A stretch of DNA of 64,000 nucleotides, from the NCBI GenBank assembly GCA_945787885.1, contig CALZJF010000003.1, positions 1-64,000 on the forward strand, read 5' to 3'. Positions within the stretch are counted from its first letter, which is position 1. Every line of letters starts with the position of its first letter. The notes below the pieces were generated by a model, which saw only the letters and a list, made by a program, of their open reading frames with translations, was not told where the DNA came from and did no database searches. The DNA is from an uncultured Bacteroidales bacterium. GTDB taxonomy: Bacteria; Bacteroidota; Bacteroidia; Bacteroidales; Bacteroidaceae. Shown in pieces: positions 9,466-51,795 of the stretch. Both the position numbers and the translations under genes were made by a program.

Positions 9466-10977
9466 TTAGAAATTCATGGTGCGCCACGTGTCGGCCATGT
9501 TAGAAGATGCAGTCGTAGAGGGCGTTTGCGGCTTGCGCATCTTGAGGGTTTCGGCGCGCGAGGAGACTTCACGCGCGAGGAAGCTGGCGAGATCGCCGAA
9601 GTAAACTTCTCCCCCCGTCATTTGCAGACCTTTTAAGAGGTAGTAGGTGAAAAGTCCGTGCCCCTCTTCTGGCAGACACTGCGCTGTCTCGTTGCCCTGA
9701 GCAGCGGAGAATACCACCATGTTTCCCTCTGAAATTACGCCCTCTTCAGCAGCAATCTCCACGCCGCGCAGACCTTCGTTGACGCTTTCGTTGTCGCGGT
9801 TTACGCCGCTGAAGCAAGCATCGAGGAAAACGGAGGTTTGCGAGAAGGCGAGTTGCCCGATGCGGCTATAGAAATCATCGAGCGAAATGCCATACTGCGG
9901 CTTTGTGCCGCGCACATCAGTGGGGAGAATGTACGCCTTGTTTTTATTCTGAACGTCAGGAACACCATGCCCTGCATAATAAACTATGAGGCGTTTGCCC
10001 TCGCGGTTGGGAATGTTTTCCAGCCATCCCAGCTCGTCCTCCAGAATCAGCTGCTTCGTAGCATCTTCGCAGATGTGGATATTCGTGGCAGGAATGCCAA
10101 GCGTACGCTCACAGTATTGGGCAAAGACGCGGGCATCATGGATGGCAAAGGGGACTTCGGAGACGAAACGATAGTTCTGATTGCCGATGACGAGGGCATA
10201 CATATTATGGCGCATACCATAGCTTTGGGGAATAATGCTATCGACCTCAGAAGTAAGGTAATCATAATCAACTACTAAAGCCTGATTAGCCCCTTCGCGA
10301 TAGCGCGTCAGTGCGTTTTTGCTCAGGCCGTAGGTGTGGCAATTGCCTGTGTTGATGAGGCTGGGGAGACGGCGAATCTCATAATCATAGAGCGAATGAC
10401 GCACGGAGCCATCTATCTTCACTTCTGAGGCAAAGACATAAGAGCCGAGGTTGGCTGTGGGACTCACCTCAATAGAGCGCAGACCAGAGCAGTTGATGAA
10501 GGCTTGGTCTTGCACAAGACACTGGTCTGGAATCTTCACTGATGTGATGGACCGACAGTTGGCAAAGGCGATGGTGCCTATCTTTCGGATGGAATTGGGC
10601 AGTGAGATACTGGTGAGGCGTTCGCAATTATAGAAAGCTCCCCACTCAATAGAATTGACGGAGAAATCTTCAAAGACGACTTCGCTAAGTTTCGACATAT
10701 TGGCAAAGGCACACGATCCAATGCTGCTAACACCTTCAGAAATGCGGACATTGCGAACATCGAGCCCCATTTTTATCCAGGGAGCTTTGTGTTTCTGTGT
10801 ATTGTAGTCCTCCATAGGAATTCGGTAAACATTCTTGGAGATATTGCTAATGACGAGCGTTTTTCCGTCAAAAGTCCATCGAAGGTCTTTTCCGCAAGTA
10901 CCCTCAATAATGCCTTGAGCCAGAGTGCTGATGCTGCAACAGCAAGCAATGATGAGAGCAAACAAATATCTTTTCAT
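9466..10977 (-). CDS. Exported leucine-rich-repeat caspase-like protease
   Basis: 503 residues. Signal peptide MKRYLFALIIACCCSISTLAQ. Residues about 25-200 hold BspA-type leucine-rich repeats (IGSCAFANMSKLSEVVFED, IEWGAFYNCERLTSISLP, IGTIAFANCRSITSVKIP). Residues about 260-500 form a caspase/metacaspase p20-like domain: the beta strand MYALVIGNQNY, catalytic His337 in YYAGHG and catalytic Cys388 in FLDACFSG. It is the last gene of a five-gene minus-strand run headed by the CHASE2 gene, 31 bp after the beta-barrel gene. Export is unusual for the caspase fold, which is mostly cytosolic. Its substrate is unknown; the repeats probably bind a protein or glycan partner. Confidence 0.85.
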   Translation of the reverse strand: MKRYLFALIIACCCSISTLAQGIIEGTCGKDLRWTFDGKTLVISNISKNVYRIPMEDYNTQKHKAPWIKMGLDVRNVRISEGVSSIGSCAFANMSKLSEVVFEDFSVNSIEWGAFYNCERLTSISLPNSIRKIGTIAFANCRSITSVKIPDQCLVQDQAFINCSGLRSIEVSPTANLGSYVFASEVKIDGSVRHSLYDYEIRRLPSLINTGNCHTYGLSKNALTRYREGANQALVVDYDYLTSEVDSIIPQSYGMRHNMYALVIGNQNYRFVSEVPFAIHDARVFAQYCERTLGIPATNIHICEDATKQLILEDELGWLENIPNREGKRLIVYYAGHGVPDVQNKNKAYILPTDVRGTKPQYGISLDDFYSRIGQLAFSQTSVFLDACFSGVNRDNESVNEGLRGVEIAAEEGVISEGNMVVFSAAQGNETAQCLPEEGHGLFTYYLLKGLQMTGGEVYFGDLASFLAREVSSRAETLKMRKPQTPSTTASSNMADTWRTMNF

Positions 10978-11008
10978 GACTTTTTTAGTTTCAGGTTACA
11001 AAAGTAGG

Positions 11009-11956
11009 CTACCAAATATAAGAAAGCGTCACGCGTTTAGAGGTCTCGCTGAATTTGAATTTCTCGTTTCCATATATTTTCTTCTCAGCAGACTTGATGG
11101 TGTAGTTGCCATGTATCACCTCATAGCCCAGACCGATGTTTCTCCAGCTGATGCGCAGTCCCCAATTAGTGGTTAATCCGTGGCCCCAAAGAATCTTGCT
11201 ACTTCCGCTCACACGCTCGAAATACGTTTCTTCGTAGCTGTTTTCAGCATTATTCTCGGTCTTTGCAAGCAGATTGAGGTCTTGCTGGTCGTTGCCTCGC
11301 ATCCAGAAGAGCCCTATACGGTAGCCGATGGTGAAATAGGCTTGCAAACGCAGGTGTGCAGCCTGCACATTTTCCAATGGTGTCAGAGGAGCTACCGTGA
11401 TAGCTGGACCTAAGTGCATGGCATAGGCGAAGCTGTACATTTCCGAACCCCAAGGGACGTATTGGTATTCATCGACGCTGTCTTCTACGCGGAAGGTATG
11501 ACGGCTGTCGTAGCGCATGAGGCTGTCCTCGCAGTAATGGTTGACGGAGAGATCGAGCCCCGTGAAGTAAAGGCCGAAGGATACAAGATTTGAAATTGGC
11601 TTCTTATGGAACGGGAAGATAGTGGAACGCTTCAGCGACAATCCCCAATTCGTGGTATATGTGGGCGATTGTTTTGTTTCGGTCTTTGTGGCAGGGTCAT
11701 ACATCATGAGCGATTTGCCTTTCAGACTCGTTGAAGCATAAGACAGCGTCAGGTAAGCTCTCGGTTTCCAAACACTACTGATGACCTCAGTACGATATTT
11801 TTTAGAGTAGGCCATCTCTTGCATTTGGAGGATTTCGCTGATGCTGACTACCTGAGTAGTATCTTCTTCGAAATCCAGATTTGTTGGGTTGTTCTGCGCC
11901 TGAAGTCCGAGCGACATCAGAAGCGCAGCCAGCAGAAATATTGTTTTTTTCATCAT
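11009..11956 (-). CDS. Putative outer-membrane beta-barrel protein in CHASE2-caspase operon
   Basis: 315 residues with signal peptide MMKKTIFLLAALLMSLGLQAQ. The rest alternates polar and hydrophobic/aromatic residues with recurring strand-like segments (RAYLTLSYAST, NWGLSLKRST, LRLQAYFTIGYRIGLFW, NWGLRISWRNIGLGYEVIHGNYTI) and ends in an aromatic residue (LSYIW). This suits an outer-membrane barrel of perhaps 10-12 strands. I do not recognise the family. It lies between the DUF4384-like gene (68 bp upstream) and the caspase gene (31 bp downstream), so a role as the membrane partner of the caspase is plausible but inferred. Two adjacent ATGs could each be the start. Confidence 0.7.
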   Translation of the reverse strand: MMKKTIFLLAALLMSLGLQAQNNPTNLDFEEDTTQVVSISEILQMQEMAYSKKYRTEVISSVWKPRAYLTLSYASTSLKGKSLMMYDPATKTETKQSPTYTTNWGLSLKRSTIFPFHKKPISNLVSFGLYFTGLDLSVNHYCEDSLMRYDSRHTFRVEDSVDEYQYVPWGSEMYSFAYAMHLGPAITVAPLTPLENVQAAHLRLQAYFTIGYRIGLFWMRGNDQQDLNLLAKTENNAENSYEETYFERVSGSSKILWGHGLTTNWGLRISWRNIGLGYEVIHGNYTIKSAEKKIYGNEKFKFSETSKRVTLSYIW

Positions 11957-12024
11957 AGGGGAGGGAGATTGTAAGTAAATTTTATCCGTAAAAGGAAATT
12001 CTTGTTAGCCGAAAGATTGCCGTG

Positions 12025-12903
12025 TCAGATGGCAGAGCCGACAATCTTCACCCATTTGCTGCGATCGACTACCATATCTCGGTCGCGGAGGCGGAGACGT
12101 TTGAGCCATGCTTCAAAGTCTTCGATGCTCAGACTATTGGGATGGCGATGGTCGCCCGTGATTTCATTGCACTTCGTAAAGGGATTCGGTGAGAAGATGA
12201 GCACCACCTGATCCATTTCCAATGGCTGCGTGGTGATGAGATTATAGGGAATGGCTTTCGGGTCTGCCTCTCTGTCGAAGAGAAGATAGTCTTTCCCAGC
12301 CTGCACATAGTGCTGTCCGCGGGGATTATGCTTATAGGGCAGCAGGCAACTGGCTTCTTTATGTGTGCTGTCAAGCAGATAGACAGCAACATAGCCCGCG
12401 ATGGGAGAGCGAAATTGGATGAAGATGCGTTGTTTGTTGTTGAAGACCAACTGCTCTTCAGTATCATTCTTATCACCACGGAGAATCTTCCATGAGAAAT
12501 CAATGTGAGCTTGCGGAATCTCGCGTGCAAGCCCCCACACCTCGGCAGTGTAAATGATATAATTCTCCTGTACCTCCATCTTTACCTTCGGCTCTCGGGT
12601 GTCTTCCACCCATTCGGCTTGTGCAGAGAGGTCAGTCTCTTCTACGAAGCGCGTCATCTCTTCGCCGTCGATTTGATAGTCGAGGATGTTGGAAGAAAAG
12701 GTGATGAGTTCGCCAAACTCTGCCCGTATGGCATCTACTCGTGCGCGATTGATACATTCGCGCCGAGCTTCCATAGGGGTGATATTGTCAGTTTCAGAAA
12801 TCGATAGTCGGGCTGTCCCATGCACTTTGACGGGCTTTTGCGCCCATCCCATCGTGAAAGAGAGTAATGATTGCAGGAGGACAAAGGCTATAAATTTTTT
12901 CAT
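12025..12903 (-). CDS. DUF4384/LPP20-like periplasmic protein
   Basis: 292 residues from the start chosen for the signal peptide MKKFIAFVLLQSLLSFTMGWAQ. Residues about 22-140 contain an LPP20-like pattern (VHGTARLSISETDNITPMEARRECINRARVDAIRAEFG...). The C-terminal half (KQRIFIQFRSPIAGYVAVYLLD...YKAGKDYLLF-type strands) resembles DUF4384, a beta-rich domain often found beside bacterial caspases. In-frame ATG at 12921 would overlap the upstream stop, but the later ATG gives the clean signal peptide. It probably acts as an envelope adaptor; no catalytic residues are seen. Family assignment by eye is moderate. Confidence 0.7.
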   Translation of the reverse strand: MKKFIAFVLLQSLLSFTMGWAQKPVKVHGTARLSISETDNITPMEARRECINRARVDAIRAEFGELITFSSNILDYQIDGEEMTRFVEETDLSAQAEWVEDTREPKVKMEVQENYIIYTAEVWGLAREIPQAHIDFSWKILRGDKNDTEEQLVFNNKQRIFIQFRSPIAGYVAVYLLDSTHKEASCLLPYKHNPRGQHYVQAGKDYLLFDREADPKAIPYNLITTQPLEMDQVVLIFSPNPFTKCNEITGDHRHPNSLSIEDFEAWLKRLRLRDRDMVVDRSKWVKIVGSAI

Positions 12904-12913
12904 ACACATTGTT

Positions 12914-14818
12914 TCAGTCATCGAGCGGAATAAGGATGGCTTTTTTGTTTTTCATCAGAGGCATCTCCATTCCCACGCAGGCATTGATATAGGTGGGGTC
13001 GCAGAGAGTGAAGTCCATGCCAGCGGCATTCGTATAGCAGACGCCGGAGGGCGTGCTGTCGAAATGTACGGCTGCGGCCAAATGTCCTGGGTAATAGACG
13101 AGGACGCAGGGAAGATGGAGGAGGTCGCGGACGAGACGCGTGAAGAGGATGGCTCGGTCTTCGCAGTCGGCATAAGGATAATGGAGGGTTTCTTCGGCAA
13201 AGAACGCTCGGTCGCCGCCCCAGACTTTATCATCGTATTCGTATTCAAAGCCCGTCTGCACCCAGTTCAGCAGGCGATTGACGGCAGCCAACTGCGAAAG
13301 TCCTGCCAACTGCTCCTGCAGTGTGGGGTAAAGCTGCTGCTGCACATCAGTGTCTAACGGTGTGTTAGCATAAATGGCCCAACGTGTGGTCATGTTGCTG
13401 CCAACGTAGGAACTGGGATAGGCTGCAAGGAAGTCAAGAAGATTGCGGTTCACCCGCACATCGACCGTCAGGTCAGCGTATTGGCTGGACCGTATGGTGC
13501 GTCCCTCGTCTGCTGCGTTCTGCAACGATGGCAACTGTTCAATGACCAGGGAGAGTTTCTGCTCTTGTGGGAAGGCTGCCTCGCAGATATCGAGCGAACC
13601 TTCTACGGGCTCCAGTAGATAATAGCGTTCATCGTCGATGACGAAGAATCCGCGGCCGAAGATAATATGGTCAGAAGCTACGAGGAGATGGAGGCATCCG
13701 TCCTGACTGCCGAATCTCACTTGATAGCCGCTCTGGCAGAAGAGGTAGCCAGCGAGCAAGGTCGCTTCGTCAGTGCCTTCACCGCAGAATTGGGCAGCAA
13801 GGGCTTGGAGCATTTGGAGATAGGCCCAGTCGCACAATTGATGCTTGGCCCGCAGGCGTAGGCAGTCAACGAGCAGATTGTCATAGGGTGCGGAGGCAAA
13901 ATGAATCCATGCGTCTGCCACACGGTCTGGGCTCGCCTCGCCAAGGCAGATGCGCCGGCCTTCGTCGAGGCGGACGGTGAGTTCTGTGCCATAGAAACGG
14001 AAGGGGAATTGCGTATATCGACGCTCGTCTTCCTCTTCATCCGTCTCCTCAATAGGGACGATGGGCTCTACTTCGGGTTGTGGCTGCGGCACTATCTCCA
14101 TTGCGGGCAGCTCCTCCGCTTCCTTGCGATTGTCGCGATTGTCGTCTGGCAGGGTCTCCACCATGTCGTCTTCTGGCACGACCTGAGGCTCCACCCGAGG
14201 CTCCACTGGTTTCTCCACGGGGCTATGCTGGGCATATTGTTTCCAAGCGTTCCTGACGAAGTCGGCATAGTGGGCATTGGCCTCCCTGCGGAACCGCTGA
14301 TATTTTTCGCGCTGCGTCTGGCTGAAGCGTTTGTAGCTTTCGCGCAGCGTAGCAGCATTGTCAGCAAAAGAGCCTGGCATCAAGGAGGTCTTTGCAGAGT
14401 CAGTCTCACGCGTGACGGTGGCAAAGTCGGCATAGCGTTGTTGCTGCACGAACTTCTTGTTGCTCATCTGCTTTTTTACATACGCCATATAGCGTGCCGT
14501 GACGGTATAGACGCTGTTGTCATTGCTTCTTGCCAAGGCATCCACAGTGCCGCGTCCGGGCTTTTTCAATACGATGCGTCGAGCGTTTGCTTCATCGAGC
14601 AGTTCCACCTTTCCGCCGTAGGGGATGTTAATCTCCGTTTGCGGCGTAAGAGCGGAATTCATGACCACGGGGCTGCTCTTGCCTTGACAGAACTGCTCAA
14701 CCTTGCCTACGACATGATACGCCACCATCTTCTGTGCTTCAGCCTGCAAAAAGCTGAGAGCGCAAAGCATGCAGAGCATCAAGCAGCGCAAGAGCAAACT
14801 TTTCAGAATTTGTTTCAT
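12914..14818 (-). CDS. FecR-like / transglutaminase-like exported protein
   Basis: 634 residues with signal peptide ending near QAEAQ (residue 29). Residues about 30-105 look FecR-like (VVGKVEQFCQG...INIPYGGKVELLDEANARRIVLKKPGRG). A Lys/Arg-rich coiled-coil-like segment and an acidic Pro-rich linker (about 200-265) follow. The C-terminal domain carries a transglutaminase/cysteine-protease-like triad: Cys552 in YADCEDRA, His585 in AAVHF and Asp607 in LCDPTY. It may act as a peptidase, a crosslinker or a binding domain. It starts 40 bp after the CHASE2 gene and ends 10 bp before the DUF4384-like gene, so it is in the same operon. Confidence 0.75.
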   Translation of the reverse strand: MKQILKSLLLRCLMLCMLCALSFLQAEAQKMVAYHVVGKVEQFCQGKSSPVVMNSALTPQTEINIPYGGKVELLDEANARRIVLKKPGRGTVDALARSNDNSVYTVTARYMAYVKKQMSNKKFVQQQRYADFATVTRETDSAKTSLMPGSFADNAATLRESYKRFSQTQREKYQRFRREANAHYADFVRNAWKQYAQHSPVEKPVEPRVEPQVVPEDDMVETLPDDNRDNRKEAEELPAMEIVPQPQPEVEPIVPIEETDEEEDERRYTQFPFRFYGTELTVRLDEGRRICLGEASPDRVADAWIHFASAPYDNLLVDCLRLRAKHQLCDWAYLQMLQALAAQFCGEGTDEATLLAGYLFCQSGYQVRFGSQDGCLHLLVASDHIIFGRGFFVIDDERYYLLEPVEGSLDICEAAFPQEQKLSLVIEQLPSLQNAADEGRTIRSSQYADLTVDVRVNRNLLDFLAAYPSSYVGSNMTTRWAIYANTPLDTDVQQQLYPTLQEQLAGLSQLAAVNRLLNWVQTGFEYEYDDKVWGGDRAFFAEETLHYPYADCEDRAILFTRLVRDLLHLPCVLVYYPGHLAAAVHFDSTPSGVCYTNAAGMDFTLCDPTYINACVGMEMPLMKNKKAILIPLDD

Positions 14819-14858
14819 AGGAAATAATGGAGTAGGGAAGTGGAAACGGACGGCATAA

Positions 14859-16052
14859 TCAGTCTGCCTGACGGGCTTCGATTCTCCGCTGCCGCCATGC
14901 CTTCAGATAATTTTCGATAGCAATGAAGAGATTGCGCGAAGTGCCGAGGAAGGTGATGACGGTGAGTGCCCAAGCCAGATTGACGCTCCACCCATATATA
15001 TTAAAGAGGAGGAAGCAGATGCCGAGTATGAGCGTAGAGAAGAAAATAGTCCAGATGCCCATCATATACGTTGAGCCCACGATGTAGCGGATGAAGATGC
15101 GCTTTGATGCTGCCGTGCGAGTCAGATAGTGGTGCTGGAGCACTTCTACGAGCAAGATGATGAGGAGGGAGATGAGGCATAGGGCAGGATAAGAAAGTGT
15201 CTTCACCTCATTGCTGTAGAGCACACTCTGCAAGCCGTAAGCCATTAGTTCTACGCCGGCAATCTTTCCGATTGGTGTCCAGTGCATGTCGGTGTCTTGG
15301 TTCATTGCTCCGATTAGCACGATTTGCCCCTCTATCATTTCCGGGTGCTGGCTGACCTCTTCAGGCGAAAGTACGCGAAAGACCGTGGGCGTGAAGTTGA
15401 TTCTCACGTCCTCGCGCCGATTCTTCACCAAGTCTGTCTCTGCATAACGGTTTGCTATCTGCGTGACGAACGATGGCTGCCATTGCCCCTTCAGCCGCTC
15501 GTAGAGGGGTATCTTTCGCTTCATGTTATCGAAGAGGGCGCGCGGGATGTTCGTGCTGCCCTCGCAGACATCGACGGCTTCGGTGAAGAAGGAATGAATG
15601 GCATTCGTCCATCCAATGCTATCGTTCCTCCAGTCTGTCAGTTTCATGGAGCAGACGATATTCTGATGCCGCTCCATCGTCTCTATCAGACTATAGTTGC
15701 CATCCATGTCGCAGCCCTCAAGGTCGAAGTTGACATCCAGTCCCACCACCTTGGGCGAATGGGTTTCCACGGCTTCAATCAGCTCGGCAATATCCTTCCG
15801 CTTGACGAGTTGCGTCATATCGACCAAGGTGATTACGTGCGACGTGTCGGGCTTGCCACTCTCCTGCTGGATTTCATAGTAGATGTCAGTGAAGGAGAAG
15901 TCCTTGACAACGCGTTTCACTGGGTCTAACGGCTTGGCGTAAATAGCTATCAAGGCGAACAGACTGGATATGGCGATAGAAATCAGTGTGATGGCACAAT
16001 GCCGATAGAAGTGCTGATAGAAGTGCCGCGGATGTTTCTTAAACCTGTTCAT
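14859..16052 (-). CDS. CHASE2-domain membrane sensor without output domain
   Basis: 397 residues. One N-terminal transmembrane segment (about 20-38), an extracytoplasmic CHASE2 domain (about 45-270, with VKDFSFTDIYYE, VVGLDVNFD, INFTPTVFRVLS and the terminal GQIVLIGAMNQDTDMHWTPIGKIAGVELMA), then three transmembrane segments to about residue 375 and a basic tail. CHASE2 is an extracellular sensing domain usually fused to kinases, cyclases or phosphatases; none is present here. It is first in a five-gene run, and a family A element begins 28 bp upstream, so the promoter must lie in or beyond it. Ligand unknown. Confidence 0.85.
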   Translation of the reverse strand: MNRFKKHPRHFYQHFYRHCAITLISIAISSLFALIAIYAKPLDPVKRVVKDFSFTDIYYEIQQESGKPDTSHVITLVDMTQLVKRKDIAELIEAVETHSPKVVGLDVNFDLEGCDMDGNYSLIETMERHQNIVCSMKLTDWRNDSIGWTNAIHSFFTEAVDVCEGSTNIPRALFDNMKRKIPLYERLKGQWQPSFVTQIANRYAETDLVKNRREDVRINFTPTVFRVLSPEEVSQHPEMIEGQIVLIGAMNQDTDMHWTPIGKIAGVELMAYGLQSVLYSNEVKTLSYPALCLISLLIILLVEVLQHHYLTRTAASKRIFIRYIVGSTYMMGIWTIFFSTLILGICFLLFNIYGWSVNLAWALTVITFLGTSRNLFIAIENYLKAWRQRRIEARQAD

Positions 16053-16079
16053 AGCGATTCTTGACCATAGAACTTATAA

Positions 16080-16275
16080 GGTAGGTTCTATAAATTAGCT
16101 TGCGATGTATTTGCGGCTATCGTGCCGTAGGTTTTTGTTTTTCATGAGGGAGCGTAGCGGGCTACGTGACTGAATGAAAGACAAAAAGATACGGTGCGAG
16201 AGGCGTGAAGACATCCAAGTAAAGCAGAAACACAGCCTTACTTTGAAAACTAATTTATAGATTATAGAACCTACC
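16080..16275 (+). mobile_element. Family A hairpin element, copy 2
   Basis: 196 bp with ends GGTAGGTTCTATAAATTAG and ATAGAACCTACC, flanked by a perfect ATAA duplication (16076-16079, 16276-16279). The right end carries a small internal duplication (TTATAGATTATAG), which explains the extra 7 bp over other copies. It occupies the upstream region of the CHASE2 gene. Confidence 0.85.
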
Positions 16276-16277
16276 AT

Positions 16278-16335
16278 AAGAGTAGGTGATGGAAATTATT
16301 CAATAGTAGGTGTCGTAAGAATTATTATGGTTTTT
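16278..16335. repeat. Family B end fragment between two family A copies
   Basis: AAGAGTAGGTGATGGAAATTATT followed by AATAGTAGGTGTCGTAAGAATTATTATGG matches the left ends of family B copies at 25291 and 29113; the element body is missing. It separates family A copies 2 and 3 and shows repeated insertion at this site. Confidence 0.55.
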
Positions 16336-16525
16336 GGTAGGTTCTATCAATTAGCTTGTGATGTGTTCGCAGCTATCATGTCGTAGGTTTTTGATATTCA
16401 TAAGGGAGCGTAGCGGGCTACGTGACCGAATGAAAGACAAAAACCTACGGTGGGAGAGGCGTGAAGACATCCAAGTACAAATAGAAACACTACCTTCCAT
16501 TGAAAACTAATTCATACAACCTACC
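16336..16525 (+). mobile_element. Family A hairpin element, copy 3 (degenerate)
   Basis: 190 bp, same layout as the other family A copies but with more substitutions (for example TTCATACAACCTACC at the right end) and no intact target duplication. Probably an older insertion. Confidence 0.75.
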
Positions 16526-16540
16526 CTTTATGTGTTAGCC

Positions 16541-16595
16541 CCTCTCTCTGTCGCTTCTTTTTGCCTTGAAGACAGTCACATGGCCTGTGCTATTC
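16541..16595 (+). repeat. Family B core fragment reaching into the LPP20-like gene end
   Basis: The stretch TTGCCTTGAAGACAGTCACATGGCCTG matches the centre of family B (for example 29200-29230). Both element ends are missing here. It covers the TAG stop of the LPP20-like gene, so that gene's 3' end appears to derive from, or be cut by, the element. Confidence 0.55.
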
Positions 16596-17273
16596 CCCCA
16601 TCAGTTTCGAGAGTTTTTCCTGCAGTTCGCCGCTTTCTTTCTCAAAGGCCTTCAATACGGTGGAGCGGGCCGACCTGCCGTCGCAGCTCACATTGACCAT
16701 CACTTCCGTCTTGCCGTCTTTTTCACGAAAAGCCTCAAAGACCACTTGTGTCCTGCCGAGCGACTGCTCCACGAACTGCCTGCTGGAGGTGAGCACTTTG
16801 CCTACGGTCTCTACGTCGGAATGGCTCAGCTCCACGTTGCTCTCCGATGCTTCGATGAGTTCCGTCACTTCCGTCTGAATACAGGCAGCCACGTCAGTGC
16901 GAGCGCGAGCCACGGCCTGTTTGCGGGCTGTGCCAAACGTACTGCCATAGCCGCTGCCACGTCCGATGATAAAGCGAGGAAAGGTGCCTTCCAGCTCATA
17001 CTGCGCCATCAGCGCATCGTTGAGCTGCTGTTCCAGACTGGGAGTGCCGGGGCTGGACTTCCAGCCTTCTTTCTTCCATGCTCTCACCTGCCTCTTGGTT
17101 TCCTTCCAAACGTTCGACTCCACTTGTTTGCGCGTCATTTTCGCCATGGTCTTACGCATTTTGATGACTTCCTTCTGCTGCTCTACCCATTGTTCCGTTT
17201 GCGACATGGCTGGCAAAGCGGCCATCATAAAGCCGCCGAGCACGAGAATGGCCAGATGATTTCTGAGTTTCAT
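16590..17273 (-). CDS. LPP20-like exported protein
   Basis: 227 residues from the ATG chosen for the signal peptide (MKLRNHLAILVLGGFMMAALPAMSQ). A basic, probably coiled-coil segment follows (about 25-70), then an LPP20-like region with GTARKQAVARARTDVAACIQTEVTELIEAS and VETVGKVLTSSRQFVEQSL, and a strand VEVMVNVSCDG-like end. There is no lipobox Cys, so it is periplasmic rather than lipidated. It precedes the CHASE2 operon on the same strand, but two family A copies lie between, so cotranscription is uncertain. The shared LPP20 pattern with the gene at 12025 suggests a functional link. Confidence 0.7.
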   Translation of the reverse strand: MKLRNHLAILVLGGFMMAALPAMSQTEQWVEQQKEVIKMRKTMAKMTRKQVESNVWKETKRQVRAWKKEGWKSSPGTPSLEQQLNDALMAQYELEGTFPRFIIGRGSGYGSTFGTARKQAVARARTDVAACIQTEVTELIEASESNVELSHSDVETVGKVLTSSRQFVEQSLGRTQVVFEAFREKDGKTEVMVNVSCDGRSARSTVLKAFEKESGELQEKLSKLMGE

Positions 17274-33102: not shown

Positions 33103-33165
33103 TAGGCAATGAAAATTAGTTCAAACCTACAAGCCATGATTATTCCTACTATAGAACCTACCTAA
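33103..33165. repeat. Family B left part interrupted by family A
   Basis: GTAGGCAATGAAAATTAGTTCAAA, then CCATGATTATTCCTACTATAGAACCTACC, a shortened family B left part with a stray family A right end. The matching family B right end (AAAATAATTTTTATCGCCTAC, 33356-33381) lies on the far side of family A copy 5, so A appears nested inside B. Confidence 0.6.
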
Positions 33166-33166
33166 T

Positions 33167-33355
33167 GGTAGGTTCTATAAATTAGTTTTCAATGTAAGGC
33201 AGTGTTTCTGTTTTACTTGGATGTCTTCACGCCTCTCGCACCGTATCTTTTTGTCTTTCATTCAGTCACGTAGCCCGCTACGCTCCCTCGTGAAAAACAA
33301 AAACCTACGGCACGATAGTCGCAAATACATCGCAAGCTAATTTATAGAACCTACC
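33167..33355 (-). mobile_element. Family A hairpin element, copy 5 (inverted)
   Basis: 189 bp, reverse orientation relative to copies 1-4. Ends GGTAGGTTCTATAAATTAG and CTAATTTATAGAACCTACC are perfect inverses. Flanks TAAT and TAAA differ by one base. It lies between the regulator stop and the susC upstream region, inside family B end sequences. Confidence 0.85.
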
Positions 33356-48576: not shown

Positions 48577-51500
48577 TCAGTCGAGCATGATGAATGGTGC
48601 CCAGCAGTAAGGGTCGGGATAGCGTTGGCGGATGTAGGACTTTGCTTCGCTGAAAGCTGCATGTTTGTCCCAGGCATTGCGAGAATCGGCAAGCGACTGG
48701 CAGAACTTCACGATGAATTCACGTGTGACGACATCGCTGACGTTCCATAGCGTCATGACGATTGTCTTTGCCCCAGCCTTTTTGAAGCCGCGCTGTAGGC
48801 CGTAGATTCCCTCGCGTGTGGATTGTCCGGCACCCGTGCGGCACGCCGAGAGCATCACGAGTTGCAGACCATCGAGATTCATCTTCGCTATGTCGTTGGC
48901 AGTGAGGATTCCGCCCATGACGCCATCAGGGAGCGTCTTTCCCTGCCATGTGTTGTTGCCTCCGGCAAGGACGATGCCCGAGAGCGACATGGCATCTTTG
49001 TAGCCCTTGAGGTAATCGTAGTTGGCAGCCTCCTGCGGCGTATAGTAGAAGCCGTGGGTGGCCACGAGCAACAGGTCGGGAGCATTGCCGCTCATGCTGA
49101 CGAACGATTCCGACGTGCCCAACGGCCCCATAAACCGCTCCACACTGACCTCCTGACGTTGCAACACCTGCTCCACCTCTAAGACTTCCTGCCGCGTGCC
49201 AGGCAATTCGGCAAACCCACGGCTGCCGCGAAGCCCATTCTCACCGCGGGCGGCAAAGACGGGAGGAATGTTGGGCCGATGGCGCTCATGGTCAGCCAGC
49301 ATCTCCTCGGGAGAGAGGTCATACTGCAGTCCGCCGTAGAGCACTGCCCGCGGAGCCACCCCCTTCTGCGCGATGGAGGAGGAATGGCGCAGCAGTTCGC
49401 GCGCTGAAGAGAGGCGTACGAAATGATAGTGGTCGCCCAGGATGGAGCCATCCTTCAGCGGAATGTTCTCCAATGCTATCTGGAAGAGGAACTGCGAGGG
49501 CACATAGTAGATGGTGGAGCCGCGTTTCACCTGCTTCGACAGCGGTTTCCAGAGCAGGCTGCGGAGCATTTCGGCAGCCGCCCCCTCATAGTATTCCTGC
49601 GGTGCTGTGACGCCGAGCGAACTGATGGCGCGCTCATCGAAGAGCGGGAGGAGGAGCGGATTTTCCTGCTGCTGCCGGACGATGTAAGCCGCATATTTCC
49701 TGCCCTCGCTCTCAGTGGAATAGTCGGTGAAGTCTATCAGCACCTCCTTGCGCCCCAGTGCGAGCTTCACGTCCTCGTAGTCCGTCTCCATGAACGCCGT
49801 GATGTCGCCAAAGGCTTGGCATCGGGCGGCAAGATGCTGCGAATGAGTGGCGATGTGTGCTGCCAGCGCCGTGATGCTGTCGGCATTCAGGCGATAGTCT
49901 TTCTCCAGCTTCTCCATCTTCAGCTGCAGCGATGCTATCTCCAGATATTCGTTGATGGCCGCCTCGTCGCCCTGCCGGCTGATGATTTCAAATGCCGTGC
50001 GCTCCTTCTCCAAGAGGAAGGCCTTGGAGAGCAGGAGGGCATCGTAGCAGAGCCGCGTGAAGTCAGTCTGCACCTTGCCAGCCTTGATGGCAAAGGGCGT
50101 CATGTCGGTCATGAGTTTCGATATGCGCTCCCAGGCAGCGTCGCGGTCTTTTATCCCCTTGTGCGGGAGCTGCTTCTTGATTAGCTCCGTCATCTTCTCC
50201 GTTGCCAGTGTCAGATGTCGGCAGGCTGCATCAAGATTGCCGGCAAATCCCTCGGCATTTGCCATATAGTTGATGGCCTCAATGTGGTTTTGGCAATATT
50301 CGCCGTAGGTCTCAGCCGTCAGCCGGGCATGGCGCTTATAGCGTTGCTCCGCCTCCTCATAGCGTTTGAGCTTGATGCAGACCCCTCCGGTGAGGGCTTG
50401 AAGTTGAATGCGGGACGGGTCGGTAGCATCAACCTCCGTAGCCAGAAGACTATCGATGGTGCAGTAGTCAGCATAGGCCGCCTCATACTCTTGAAATGCC
50501 GAGTGAGCCAGTCCGCGCATGACGTAGTGAGGGAAGAGTTCGCGCGGAGTAGCAGTGGCATCGAGTCCGAGGAAGAGGGAATCAATGTGCGCCATGCACC
50601 GCTCCCGGTCGCCCATGCGCTGATAGATGTTGGCAGTGGTGCTGTGGGTGAGGCGAGTGGCAGTGTGTTCTGGCCCGAAGTGCTTCTCGTAGAGGCGCGT
50701 GCAGCGTTGGGCATAGAGGAGTGCCTCCTCATAGCGTTGCGCCGCGATGTAGAGTTCGCGGAGATCAGAGAGATATAAGCTGGCGTAAGGCATCTGTTCG
50801 GGGGCGTTGCGCTGCACGATGTCAGCATTCTTCTTAAACCAAAGCTCGGCCAAGTCATAGTTGCCCTGCTCCAGTGCTTCGTGACCCTTGTCTTCATGGA
50901 AGAAGAAGGTGGCCTCGTCGCTGTTCATGCAGCGCACGAGAGAGTCCATCTGCATCGAAATCTTCGCCTCATCGTGGCTGTCGCCTAAGATACGATAGAG
51001 CTTCTTCTTCTCCTTGAGCAGCTCCATCATCTTCCCGCCGTTGTTTGCGCTTTTTGCTGCAGCCCAAGCCTTTTCGTATGCTTCGAGGGCAGGCTGGAGC
51101 TCGCAAAGTTCGCGCGAGGCATCGCCGACGGCCTTTGCCGAGAGATACGCTCCCGTGGAGTGTCCGATTTGGCAAAAGAGCGGATAGGCTTCCGTCATGC
51201 AGCGTCGGCCCGCTCCTTCCTCTTGCACCACGAGGTGAAGATGGCCTTCGACGTACCAGGCAAAGGCCAAGCATTTCCGCAGGGCATGAAGATCGTCGCC
51301 CGAAGCCAGGGGCAGCACCTCATAGAGCAGACTCTGCGCCTGCTGAAGTTGCTGCGGGCATTCGCGCGTGTTGATCAGAAGCGTCGCCCAATCGTAGGCA
51401 CAGAGTATCAGCATCTCTGTCGTTTCCGCCTTCTCCTCCTCGGTCAGTGGGAGTTGCATCAGGCGTTTGGCTATGGGGTAAGCCGCATCGGGCTGGTCGG

Positions 51501-51795
51501 TGGCGTCGTAGCACTCTGCCAGCATGAGCATACATCTGACGCGTTCAGCATGGCGGCCCGCCTCTTCCCCCATGCTCTCCATTTGCTCAGCCAAAGGCTG
51601 GAGGAGGACGATGGCATCAGCGTGGCTGCCCGCATCCATGAGCGTCTGCGCCTTGGCAATTACATCGGCTGATGAGGCAGCTGCCACATCCGTCGGGCTC
51701 ACTGGGAGAGGCAGAGCCGCCGCAGCGAGGGAGGAGAGAAGCAGAAAGAGCAGACTGGCAGACAGTCTGCGCAGTGTGATAGTCAGAAGGAGCAT
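48577..51795 (-). CDS. Exported TPR-CHAT (caspase-like) protein
   Basis: 1072 residues. Signal peptide MLLLTITLRRLSASLLFLLLSSLAAAA. Residues about 40-560 form tetratricopeptide-like helical repeats (for example ALEAYEKAWAAAKSANNGGKMMELLKEKKKLYRILG). Residues about 700-1072 form a CHAT domain with catalytic His914 (LLVATHGFY) and Cys985 (VMLSACRTGAG), plus GIYGLQRGFKKAGAKTIVMTLW typical of the family. CHAT proteases are caspase relatives, mostly cytosolic; this one is probably periplasmic. It follows the cation efflux gene by 19 bp. Confidence 0.87.
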   Translation of the reverse strand: MLLLTITLRRLSASLLFLLLSSLAAAALPLPVSPTDVAAASSADVIAKAQTLMDAGSHADAIVLLQPLAEQMESMGEEAGRHAERVRCMLMLAECYDATDQPDAAYPIAKRLMQLPLTEEEKAETTEMLILCAYDWATLLINTRECPQQLQQAQSLLYEVLPLASGDDLHALRKCLAFAWYVEGHLHLVVQEEGAGRRCMTEAYPLFCQIGHSTGAYLSAKAVGDASRELCELQPALEAYEKAWAAAKSANNGGKMMELLKEKKKLYRILGDSHDEAKISMQMDSLVRCMNSDEATFFFHEDKGHEALEQGNYDLAELWFKKNADIVQRNAPEQMPYASLYLSDLRELYIAAQRYEEALLYAQRCTRLYEKHFGPEHTATRLTHSTTANIYQRMGDRERCMAHIDSLFLGLDATATPRELFPHYVMRGLAHSAFQEYEAAYADYCTIDSLLATEVDATDPSRIQLQALTGGVCIKLKRYEEAEQRYKRHARLTAETYGEYCQNHIEAINYMANAEGFAGNLDAACRHLTLATEKMTELIKKQLPHKGIKDRDAAWERISKLMTDMTPFAIKAGKVQTDFTRLCYDALLLSKAFLLEKERTAFEIISRQGDEAAINEYLEIASLQLKMEKLEKDYRLNADSITALAAHIATHSQHLAARCQAFGDITAFMETDYEDVKLALGRKEVLIDFTDYSTESEGRKYAAYIVRQQQENPLLLPLFDERAISSLGVTAPQEYYEGAAAEMLRSLLWKPLSKQVKRGSTIYYVPSQFLFQIALENIPLKDGSILGDHYHFVRLSSARELLRHSSSIAQKGVAPRAVLYGGLQYDLSPEEMLADHERHRPNIPPVFAARGENGLRGSRGFAELPGTRQEVLEVEQVLQRQEVSVERFMGPLGTSESFVSMSGNAPDLLLVATHGFYYTPQEAANYDYLKGYKDAMSLSGIVLAGGNNTWQGKTLPDGVMGGILTANDIAKMNLDGLQLVMLSACRTGAGQSTREGIYGLQRGFKKAGAKTIVMTLWNVSDVVTREFIVKFCQSLADSRNAWDKHAAFSEAKSYIRQRYPDPYCWAPFIMLD

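Follow-up and report, generated by a model that had tools for sequence, protein, structure and literature searches.

An operon conserved in gut and rumen Bacteroidales places a CHASE2 sensor lacking an inward signalling part beside exported caspase-like proteases

How does a CHASE2 sensor act when it has no inward signalling part, and why should it be encoded beside an exported caspase-like protease? The question is raised by a 64,000-nt stretch of DNA from an uncultured Bacteroidales bacterium of the Bacteroidaceae (contig CALZJF010000003.1; "the window" below means this whole stretch), in which both genes lie in an operon on the minus strand, running from 17273 down to 9466 (Table 1). The operon is conserved in gut and rumen Bacteroidales. 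Its core, well supported in its composition, is an output-less CHASE2 receptor and a FecR-like protein, the latter probably periplasmic, with interchangeable exported cysteine proteases. We read it as a modular envelope sensor-protease system in which the CHASE2 receptor would gate envelope proteolysis through its FecR-like partner, a mechanism to which we would give slightly less than even odds (about 0.47).

From CHASE2 to the caspase, neighbouring genes are separated by 40 bp, an 8-bp overlap (+7 bp if the DUF4384-like protein begins at its alternative start), 68 bp and 31 bp. An initial annotation, made from the sequence alone, had placed the five minus-strand reading frames correctly, but its gaps of 10–68 bp were not exact. 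Export of the products other than CHASE2 (transglutaminase-like or TGase, DUF4384, LPP20 and caspase) was judged by eye from signal peptides.

Table 1 Genes of the CHASE2 operon, and one further protease gene of the window
Feature	Position	Strand	Basis
LPP20-like protein, putatively exported	16590..17273	minus	orthologs adjoin CHASE2 in relatives; no notable Pfam match in the window
CHASE2 receptor	14859..16052	minus	Pfam CHASE2 1.6e-18; hydropathy
FecR-like + transglutaminase-like (TGase) protein	12914..14818	minus	Transglut_core 2.3e-4, below cut-off; AlphaFold2 (AF2); Foldseek
DUF4384-like protein, putatively exported	12025..12921 (alternative start 12906)	minus	DUF4384 8.1e-5, below cut-off
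Predicted outer-membrane beta-barrel	11009..11956	minus	AF2 and Foldseek
BspA-type leucine-rich repeat (LRR) + Peptidase_C14 caspase, putatively exported	9466..10977	minus	LRR_5 5.9e-24; Peptidase_C14 9.4e-14
Exported TPR-CHAT protease	48577-51795	minus	CHAT 1.2e-46; no CHASE2 neighbour

The 397-aa CHASE2 protein scores 67.6 bits against a Pfam cut-off of 26.3. Hydropathy gives hydrophobic stretches at residues 17–42, 282–311 and 328–360, one N-terminal and two C-terminal, the second long, and by eye there is an extra C-terminal helix with a short basic tail. With its domain above cut-off and flanked by transmembrane helices, the protein has the make-up of a CHASE2 receptor. Pfam and NCBIfam scans found no second convincing domain and no cytoplasmic output domain. 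Since such a domain is lacking, the receptor would be expected to act via membrane or periplasmic partners. Comparison of the CHASE2 profile with PDB sequences gave no convincing match, and a contig scan with this protein as sole query gave no relative. Several CHASE2 relatives share, in what is presumably their cytoplasmic tail, a short motif resembling K/R-S-I/L-Y that is missing from the window's protein. To our knowledge, the ligands of CHASE2 domains are mostly unknown.

The caspase scores 52.1 bits against the Peptidase_C14 cut-off of 21.4, and its LRR_5 match is also above the Pfam cut-off. Its catalytic dyad H337/C388, the His-Cys pair of C14 peptidases, is invariant in 16 of 16 sequences; among nine other C14 proteins the His motif is found in all nine and the Cys motif in eight (not in L086). 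Against NF047832, the EACC1-associated caspase, the protein scores 55 bits and falls short of the curated cut-off of 140. No sorting domain was matched in Pfam and NCBIfam scans, and a periplasmic caspase is therefore the simplest inference. The initial annotation had named an output-less CHASE2 sensor and an exported caspase; profile searches recover both, but its DUF4384 assignment only below the cut-off.

The same genes are linked in relatives. Among 151 genomes of the same family, CHASE2 gives 20 matches in 17, the window included, and a FecR-like gene lies near CHASE2 on the same strand in 19 of the 20 loci, the exception (L035) being cut at a contig end. The protease beside this pair varies: CHAT in 11 loci, C14 in three and neither in six. 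The three with C14 are the window, L022 and L033; in L033 the caspase lies between CHASE2 and the FecR-like gene, and in L022 the window's gene set is present in the same order with one added gene inside. This gene (L022:12158-13909) encodes an exported protein of about 585 aa with no clear family, and a protein of this kind is also inserted at L133:11983-13740. In most family relatives the FecR-like partner is short, usually about 150–190 aa, and is followed by an exported protein of 762–1190 aa. All nine such proteins scanned contain a CHAT domain (Pfam 5e-47 to 1e-55), eight of them with TPR repeats; two more CHAT proteins, found via PF12770 and a profile of our own, complete the 11, and in L030 an LRR gene intervenes. 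The catalytic His motif occurs in 10 of 10 CHAT proteins, while the Cys, for which the search pattern was unsuited, was seen in the window's copy only.

Chance co-location can be rejected. The 151 family genomes hold 59 CHAT domains, 11 of them no more than 6 kb from one of the 20 CHASE2 matches, against 0.13 expected, and in 247 genomes of the phylum 19 of 97 matches to NF033682 (retention_LapA) lie within 6 kb of CHASE2, against 0.17, both being rough Poisson expectations that assume uniform positions and ignore contig breaks. A third family is represented by L127:11921-14635, a C10 (streptopain-type) protease directly after the FecR/TGase gene of a CHASE2 operon (C10 1.3e-54, Spi prodomain 4.8e-22). 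Because different protease families (C14, CHAT and C10) occupy one neighbourhood, we argue for a functional tie.

The window itself carries a TPR-CHAT gene elsewhere (Table 1), which might have been a displaced CHASE2 partner. In a CHAT tree built from nine of the 11 linked domains, 20 of the 47 other unlinked ones and the window's own, the latter pairs with an unlinked CHAT (100/99), outside the main linked clade, and this idea is rejected. Separately, CHAT and short (about 300 aa) C14 matches lie a few kb apart in several family genomes, among them G132:C25, G022:C1, G064:C16 and G118:C6, which may point to a further pairing of CHAT and caspase that does without CHASE2. The genome search with PF00656 missed the window's own caspase, and its counts are thus lower bounds.

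Beyond the family, CHASE2 was found in 13 of 247 genomes at order level and 73 of 247 at phylum level (own genome included in each), with many of the phylum hits being weak matches to CHASE2 proteins of 720–940 aa. From these, 36 loci were fetched: 11 of the 12 non-own order matches, and 25 loci from 24 of the 72 non-own phylum genomes. A FecR-like gene, recognised by a profile of our own based on 16 of the family's loci, occurs in 21 of the 36 (E 1e-3 to 1e-16), and in L098 it is fused to CHASE2 as a 750-aa protein. Over all 56 loci, window included, 40 have it on the CHASE2 strand at a distance of at most 3.3 kb, with a 4-bp overlap in 11 of the 40. Beside the pair, C14 was found in L083, L085, L086, L087 and L094. 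The C14 proteins of L083, L087, L094, L101 and L100 carry Sel1, WG, Glucodextran_B, TPR or WD40 parts (Pfam); further ones are in L085 and L086 (Pfam), and in L084 by our own profile only. By eye, NfeD-like and SPFH-like genes follow the CHASE2-FecR pair in L095, L096, L105 and L106. Loci L111–L118 hold larger CHASE2 proteins (716–920 aa), which in several cases adjoin an exported reading frame of about 790–910 aa; the large exported one of L114 has no convincing sequence relative in the PDB.

A second set of loci was chosen on the TGase domain: a profile scan gave at least 479 relatives, of which the best 80 were kept, all from Bacteroidales and chiefly Prevotella and Prevotellaceae. The TGase gene is present in all 80 by construction. 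L022 and L152 are one contig; L152 was left out of the building of hhalign profiles and is still counted in the 80. CHASE2 occurs in 39 of these loci, and within 9 kb of it are found FecR-like genes in 36, LPP20 in 33, DUF4384 in 24, C14 in 22, the barrel in 14 and CHAT in none. The gene immediately downstream of CHASE2 is FecR/TGase, FecR or TGase in 38 of the 39, the overlap in L137 exceeding the limit of the rule; in L166 and L186 the FecR-like and TGase parts are encoded by two genes. An LPP20 ortholog is immediately upstream of CHASE2 in 21 of the 39 loci (1 bp apart in L022), and in many relatives the unit begins with it.

The caspase of the LRR type occurs in 15 loci. By a distance rule, the gene adjacent to it is the barrel in 14 of these, with DUF4384 next to the barrel in 13. 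CHASE2 stands before the DUF4384-barrel-caspase block in eight loci, after it in six, and is absent in one. Because this order varies, CHASE2-FecR/TGase and DUF4384-barrel-caspase are two blocks shuffled as units. The initial annotation had proposed that linkage be checked by neighbourhood analysis, and linkage is indeed kept in both sets of loci; to this is added that CHASE2 and the FecR-like domain form a constant core, from which the DUF4384-barrel-caspase block can be separated.

What, then, is the constant partner? The product of the gene after CHASE2 has a beta domain resembling FecR or a retention module at about residues 30–105, joined to a C-terminal TGase-like domain. The FecR label has no Pfam match in the window's protein; PF04773 is absent from the family matches listed for 16, 24 and 36 relatives (for the last two sets, the 25 families matched most often) and has no match in the window's own genome. 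An hhalign comparison of the FecR-like set with 19 Bacteroidota FecR domains, a reference holding the Bacteroidota anti-sigma type only, gave a probability of 0.08%. With no PF04773 match and a negative profile-profile comparison, identity as a true anti-sigma FecR is not supported. Among 22 genomes, 12 do have a true PF04773 gene no further than about 4.5 kb from CHASE2, all 12 with the larger (720–940 aa) CHASE2; the sample was hand-chosen, and because 17 of the 22 were picked for an NF033682 match near CHASE2 this is not an unbiased rate. NF033682 is the commonest NCBIfam match in both sets of FecR-like partners (4 of 24, best 2.3e-4; 7 of 36, best 0.0049), although these matches are weak. 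In family genomes three of its best four matches are CHASE2 partners, all below cut-off. No retention module of the LapA type was found above cut-off, and the window's own genome has no match. We therefore read the domain as a probable diverged beta domain of the FecR/retention-module type, a distant resemblance only. The FecR-like and DUF4384 sets align with 67.7% probability over 158 columns; no inference is drawn, because signal peptides were included in the alignments.

The TGase label falls just below cut-off: Transglut_core scores 21.9 bits against 23, and matches at E<=1, the best being 1.4e-4, were obtained for 21 of 36 members. Residues C552, H579 and D607 are the same in all 36 aligned members, a sequence pattern suggesting the Cys-His-Asp triad of a TGase-like cysteine protease. 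With this triad intact, the domain probably serves as another cysteine protease rather than in relay. The FecR/TGase profile gave no convincing match among PDB sequences. In a Foldseek search with the AlphaFold model of the window's protein (pLDDT 83.4, 36-row alignment), LapG leads at E 3.4e-3, with PNGase and TglA, of the TGase fold, also listed.

The LapG match suggests another reading, a Lap-like release of surface proteins in which CHASE2 sequesters a LapG-like protease that cuts an outer-membrane or surface anchor, the caspase being secondary. The weak NF033682 matches to the partner sets, and their excess near CHASE2, point the same way, as does 5ix9, a cell-surface anchoring domain, which matches the model at E 0.066 over 75 columns (TM score 0.72 by target length) and was assigned by assumption to the N-terminal domain. 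5ix9 is not among the matches listed for two FecR-like alignments against PDB sequences (three of three, and the best 60 of 76), and no paper on it was found in the open-licence PMC literature, to which all literature searches here refer. Other findings speak against such release. All 19 NF033682 matches near CHASE2 are below cut-off, and 14 of them sit about 3.2–4.6 kb from the larger CHASE2 proteins. The listed Pfam matches do not include the LapG family, and NF045674 matches one of 36 members, at 0.089. The operon contains neither a GGDEF/EAL receptor nor a large adhesin, and many relatives have CHAT without TGase. We consider Lap-like release unlikely, at perhaps the odds of one in several.

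AlphaFold predicts the barrel with eight long strands and an N-terminal helix (pLDDT 80.4, 16 rows), and Foldseek finds 49 solved structures at E<=0.001, with OmpT, OprG and Ail among the leading outer-membrane barrels; in keeping with the beta-barrel-like label of the initial annotation, the product is predicted to be a membrane-spanning antiparallel outer-membrane beta-barrel. For the gene before it, labelled DUF4384/LPP20-like, PF14326 scores 23.1 bits, just below its cut-off of 27, LPP20 has no Pfam match, and the DUF4384 profile gave no convincing match among PDB sequences. The second LPP20-like gene, predicted upstream, is present across a 537-bp gap from CHASE2, but LPP20 (PF02169) has no match in the window, and the L121 ortholog reaches only 0.038. 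In this gap are two neighbouring copies (16084-16259 and 16340-16540) of a repeat of about 190 bp with inner inverted repeats. A further copy lies at 33164-33351 in the window, and the genome has at least 41 near-full-length copies, 87–90% identical to the one used as query, from a search that scored 40 of 253 candidates.

We hypothesise that the sensor-protease system works as follows. The CHASE2 protein would sit in the inner membrane, its sensor domain in the periplasm and with no cytoplasmic signalling part. The FecR-like protein, periplasmic and the constant partner, would most likely read the state of CHASE2, and would hold or release cysteine proteases that act in the periplasm. In the window these would be the TGase-fold protease joined to the FecR-like domain and the LRR-targeted caspase; in relatives a protease of the CHAT or C10 type, or a different C14, takes this slot. 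At the outer membrane, the barrel, DUF4384 and LPP20 proteins may serve for docking or as substrates, and the signal would run from the outside to the envelope. The gene content and linkage, the assignments of CHASE2 and caspase, the conservation of catalytic residues and the variety of protease families in the slot are observed; the periplasmic location, the contact of CHASE2 with its partner, the gating, the protease targets and the ligand are all things that we infer. The initial annotation had a similar logic of sensing, relay and proteolysis. Its coupling of sensor and proteolysis is strengthened, because relatives hold different exported proteases in the same neighbourhood, but relay by the FecR and DUF4384 proteins has no direct support. 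More tentatively, CHASE2-FecR pairs may be a general envelope switch, wholly extracytoplasmic, into which C14, CHAT, C10 or a LapG-like TGase is plugged, giving an extracytoplasmic caspase pathway.

Several observations weigh against the sensor-protease proposal. CHASE2 is absent from 41 of the 80 TGase-selected loci, of which 28 have LPP20, 16 DUF4384 and 19 C14, and three FecR/TGase loci (L125, L143, L171) lack it; because of these 41 loci, the LPP20, DUF4384, C14 and TGase genes do not depend on CHASE2. Six of the 20 family loci have neither CHAT nor C14: the truncated L035, L023 with TGase only, and four of one genus, among them L038 on a 5.3-kb contig. In the phylum many CHASE2-FecR loci have no recognised protease, and the claim is therefore restricted to part of the phylum. 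In 10 of the 22 genomes mentioned above, with the other, mostly output-less type of CHASE2, there is no PF04773 gene beside it. CHASE2-linked CHAT domains do not form one clade, six of the nine grouping together (99/98) and the rest lying elsewhere; the supported branches imply two or more changes, whether gains or losses, and L040 is a long branch of odd composition. Finally, the FecR/TGase model has no Foldseek match at or below 0.001, the leading match to LapG being weak.

An alternative, in line with the frequent use of caspase and CHAT proteases in bacterial conflict systems, is envelope defence or stress-triggered self-destruction, in which CHASE2 would sense an attacker or injury to the envelope and the cell would degrade envelope proteins of its own by means of the exported caspase. 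The PADLOC caspase profile PDLC02987 matches the caspase at 7.9e-16, the distribution is patchy (17 of 151 genomes), and CHASE2 is a variable part of the TRADD-N conflict systems (PMC8195603), a likeness in an apoptosis-like context. However, TRADD-N systems have a different constant component, and the sections of that paper on them mention neither a FecR-like partner nor an exported caspase. The other PADLOC matches are weak (SIR2 0.0038 on LPP20, PDC-M02A 0.024 on the DUF4384 protein), the six operon proteins scanned do not make up a full PADLOC defence gene set (neighbouring defence genes were not searched for), and the effectors appear to be exported, so that we regard defence as improbable. 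Less probable still is a housekeeping unit that matures or displays the barrel and surface proteins, with CHASE2 and the FecR-like protein as a scaffold without sensing, which would suit the presence of the barrel in 15 of 15 LRR-caspase loci, but CHASE2-FecR also occurs with other effectors and without such a barrel, and CHASE2 is treated as a sensor domain in the relevant parts of PMC5192318, PMC13001267 and the caspase-CHASE2 literature.

The envelope sensor-protease system that we favour resembles several known ones in part. In the Burkholderia BiofilmReg system a FecR-domain protein, predicted to be extracytoplasmic, is encoded beside a CHASE2 histidine kinase (PMC5192318). This is the same juxtaposition of a FecR-type protein and a CHASE2 receptor; its output, however, runs through a histidine kinase and a response regulator in the cytoplasm, and the parts of the paper on this system name no caspase, CHAT or transglutaminase. 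Because the pair is thus already known, the operon is classed as a variant of CHASE2-FecR signalling. In LapD-LapG a transmembrane receptor holds a periplasmic cysteine protease (PMC4359373; PMC3032545), again a receptor with such a protease, with LapG as best fold match and the retention-module matches weak. LapD, as described there, answers cytoplasmic c-di-GMP, whereas the operon's sensor domain would be periplasmic and caspase-type proteases are added. Sinorhizobium CHASE2 cyclases work with the barrel NsrA (PMC13001267; PMC5498481), which recalls the CHASE2 receptor and outer-membrane barrel of the operon, but there the output is a cytoplasmic cyclase, and an exported protease goes unmentioned in the relevant sections of PMC13001267. 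Trichodesmium joins a caspase-type domain to CHASE2 in one fused metacaspase-CHASE2 protein, its caspase predicted to be cytoplasmic (PMC3501461; PMC2853523), whereas in the operon the caspase is a separate gene, its product putatively exported.

Searches for CHASE2 with caspase gave cyanobacterial fusions, reviews and TRADD-N, none of which, in the sections concerned, has the composition of the operon, and a survey of metacaspases has no such gene set in its section on operons (PMC3501461). No paper was found for CHASE2 or FecR with "CHAT domain" (C10 with CHASE2 was not searched). As the initial annotation held, no described system of this composition was found. The CHASE2 outputs in the papers compared are cytoplasmic, and exported caspase-type proteolysis would be a new route from an envelope signal to action. 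Exported bacterial caspases and CHAT proteases would also gain a physiological setting, and both this and the new route could be tested in a culturable Prevotella.

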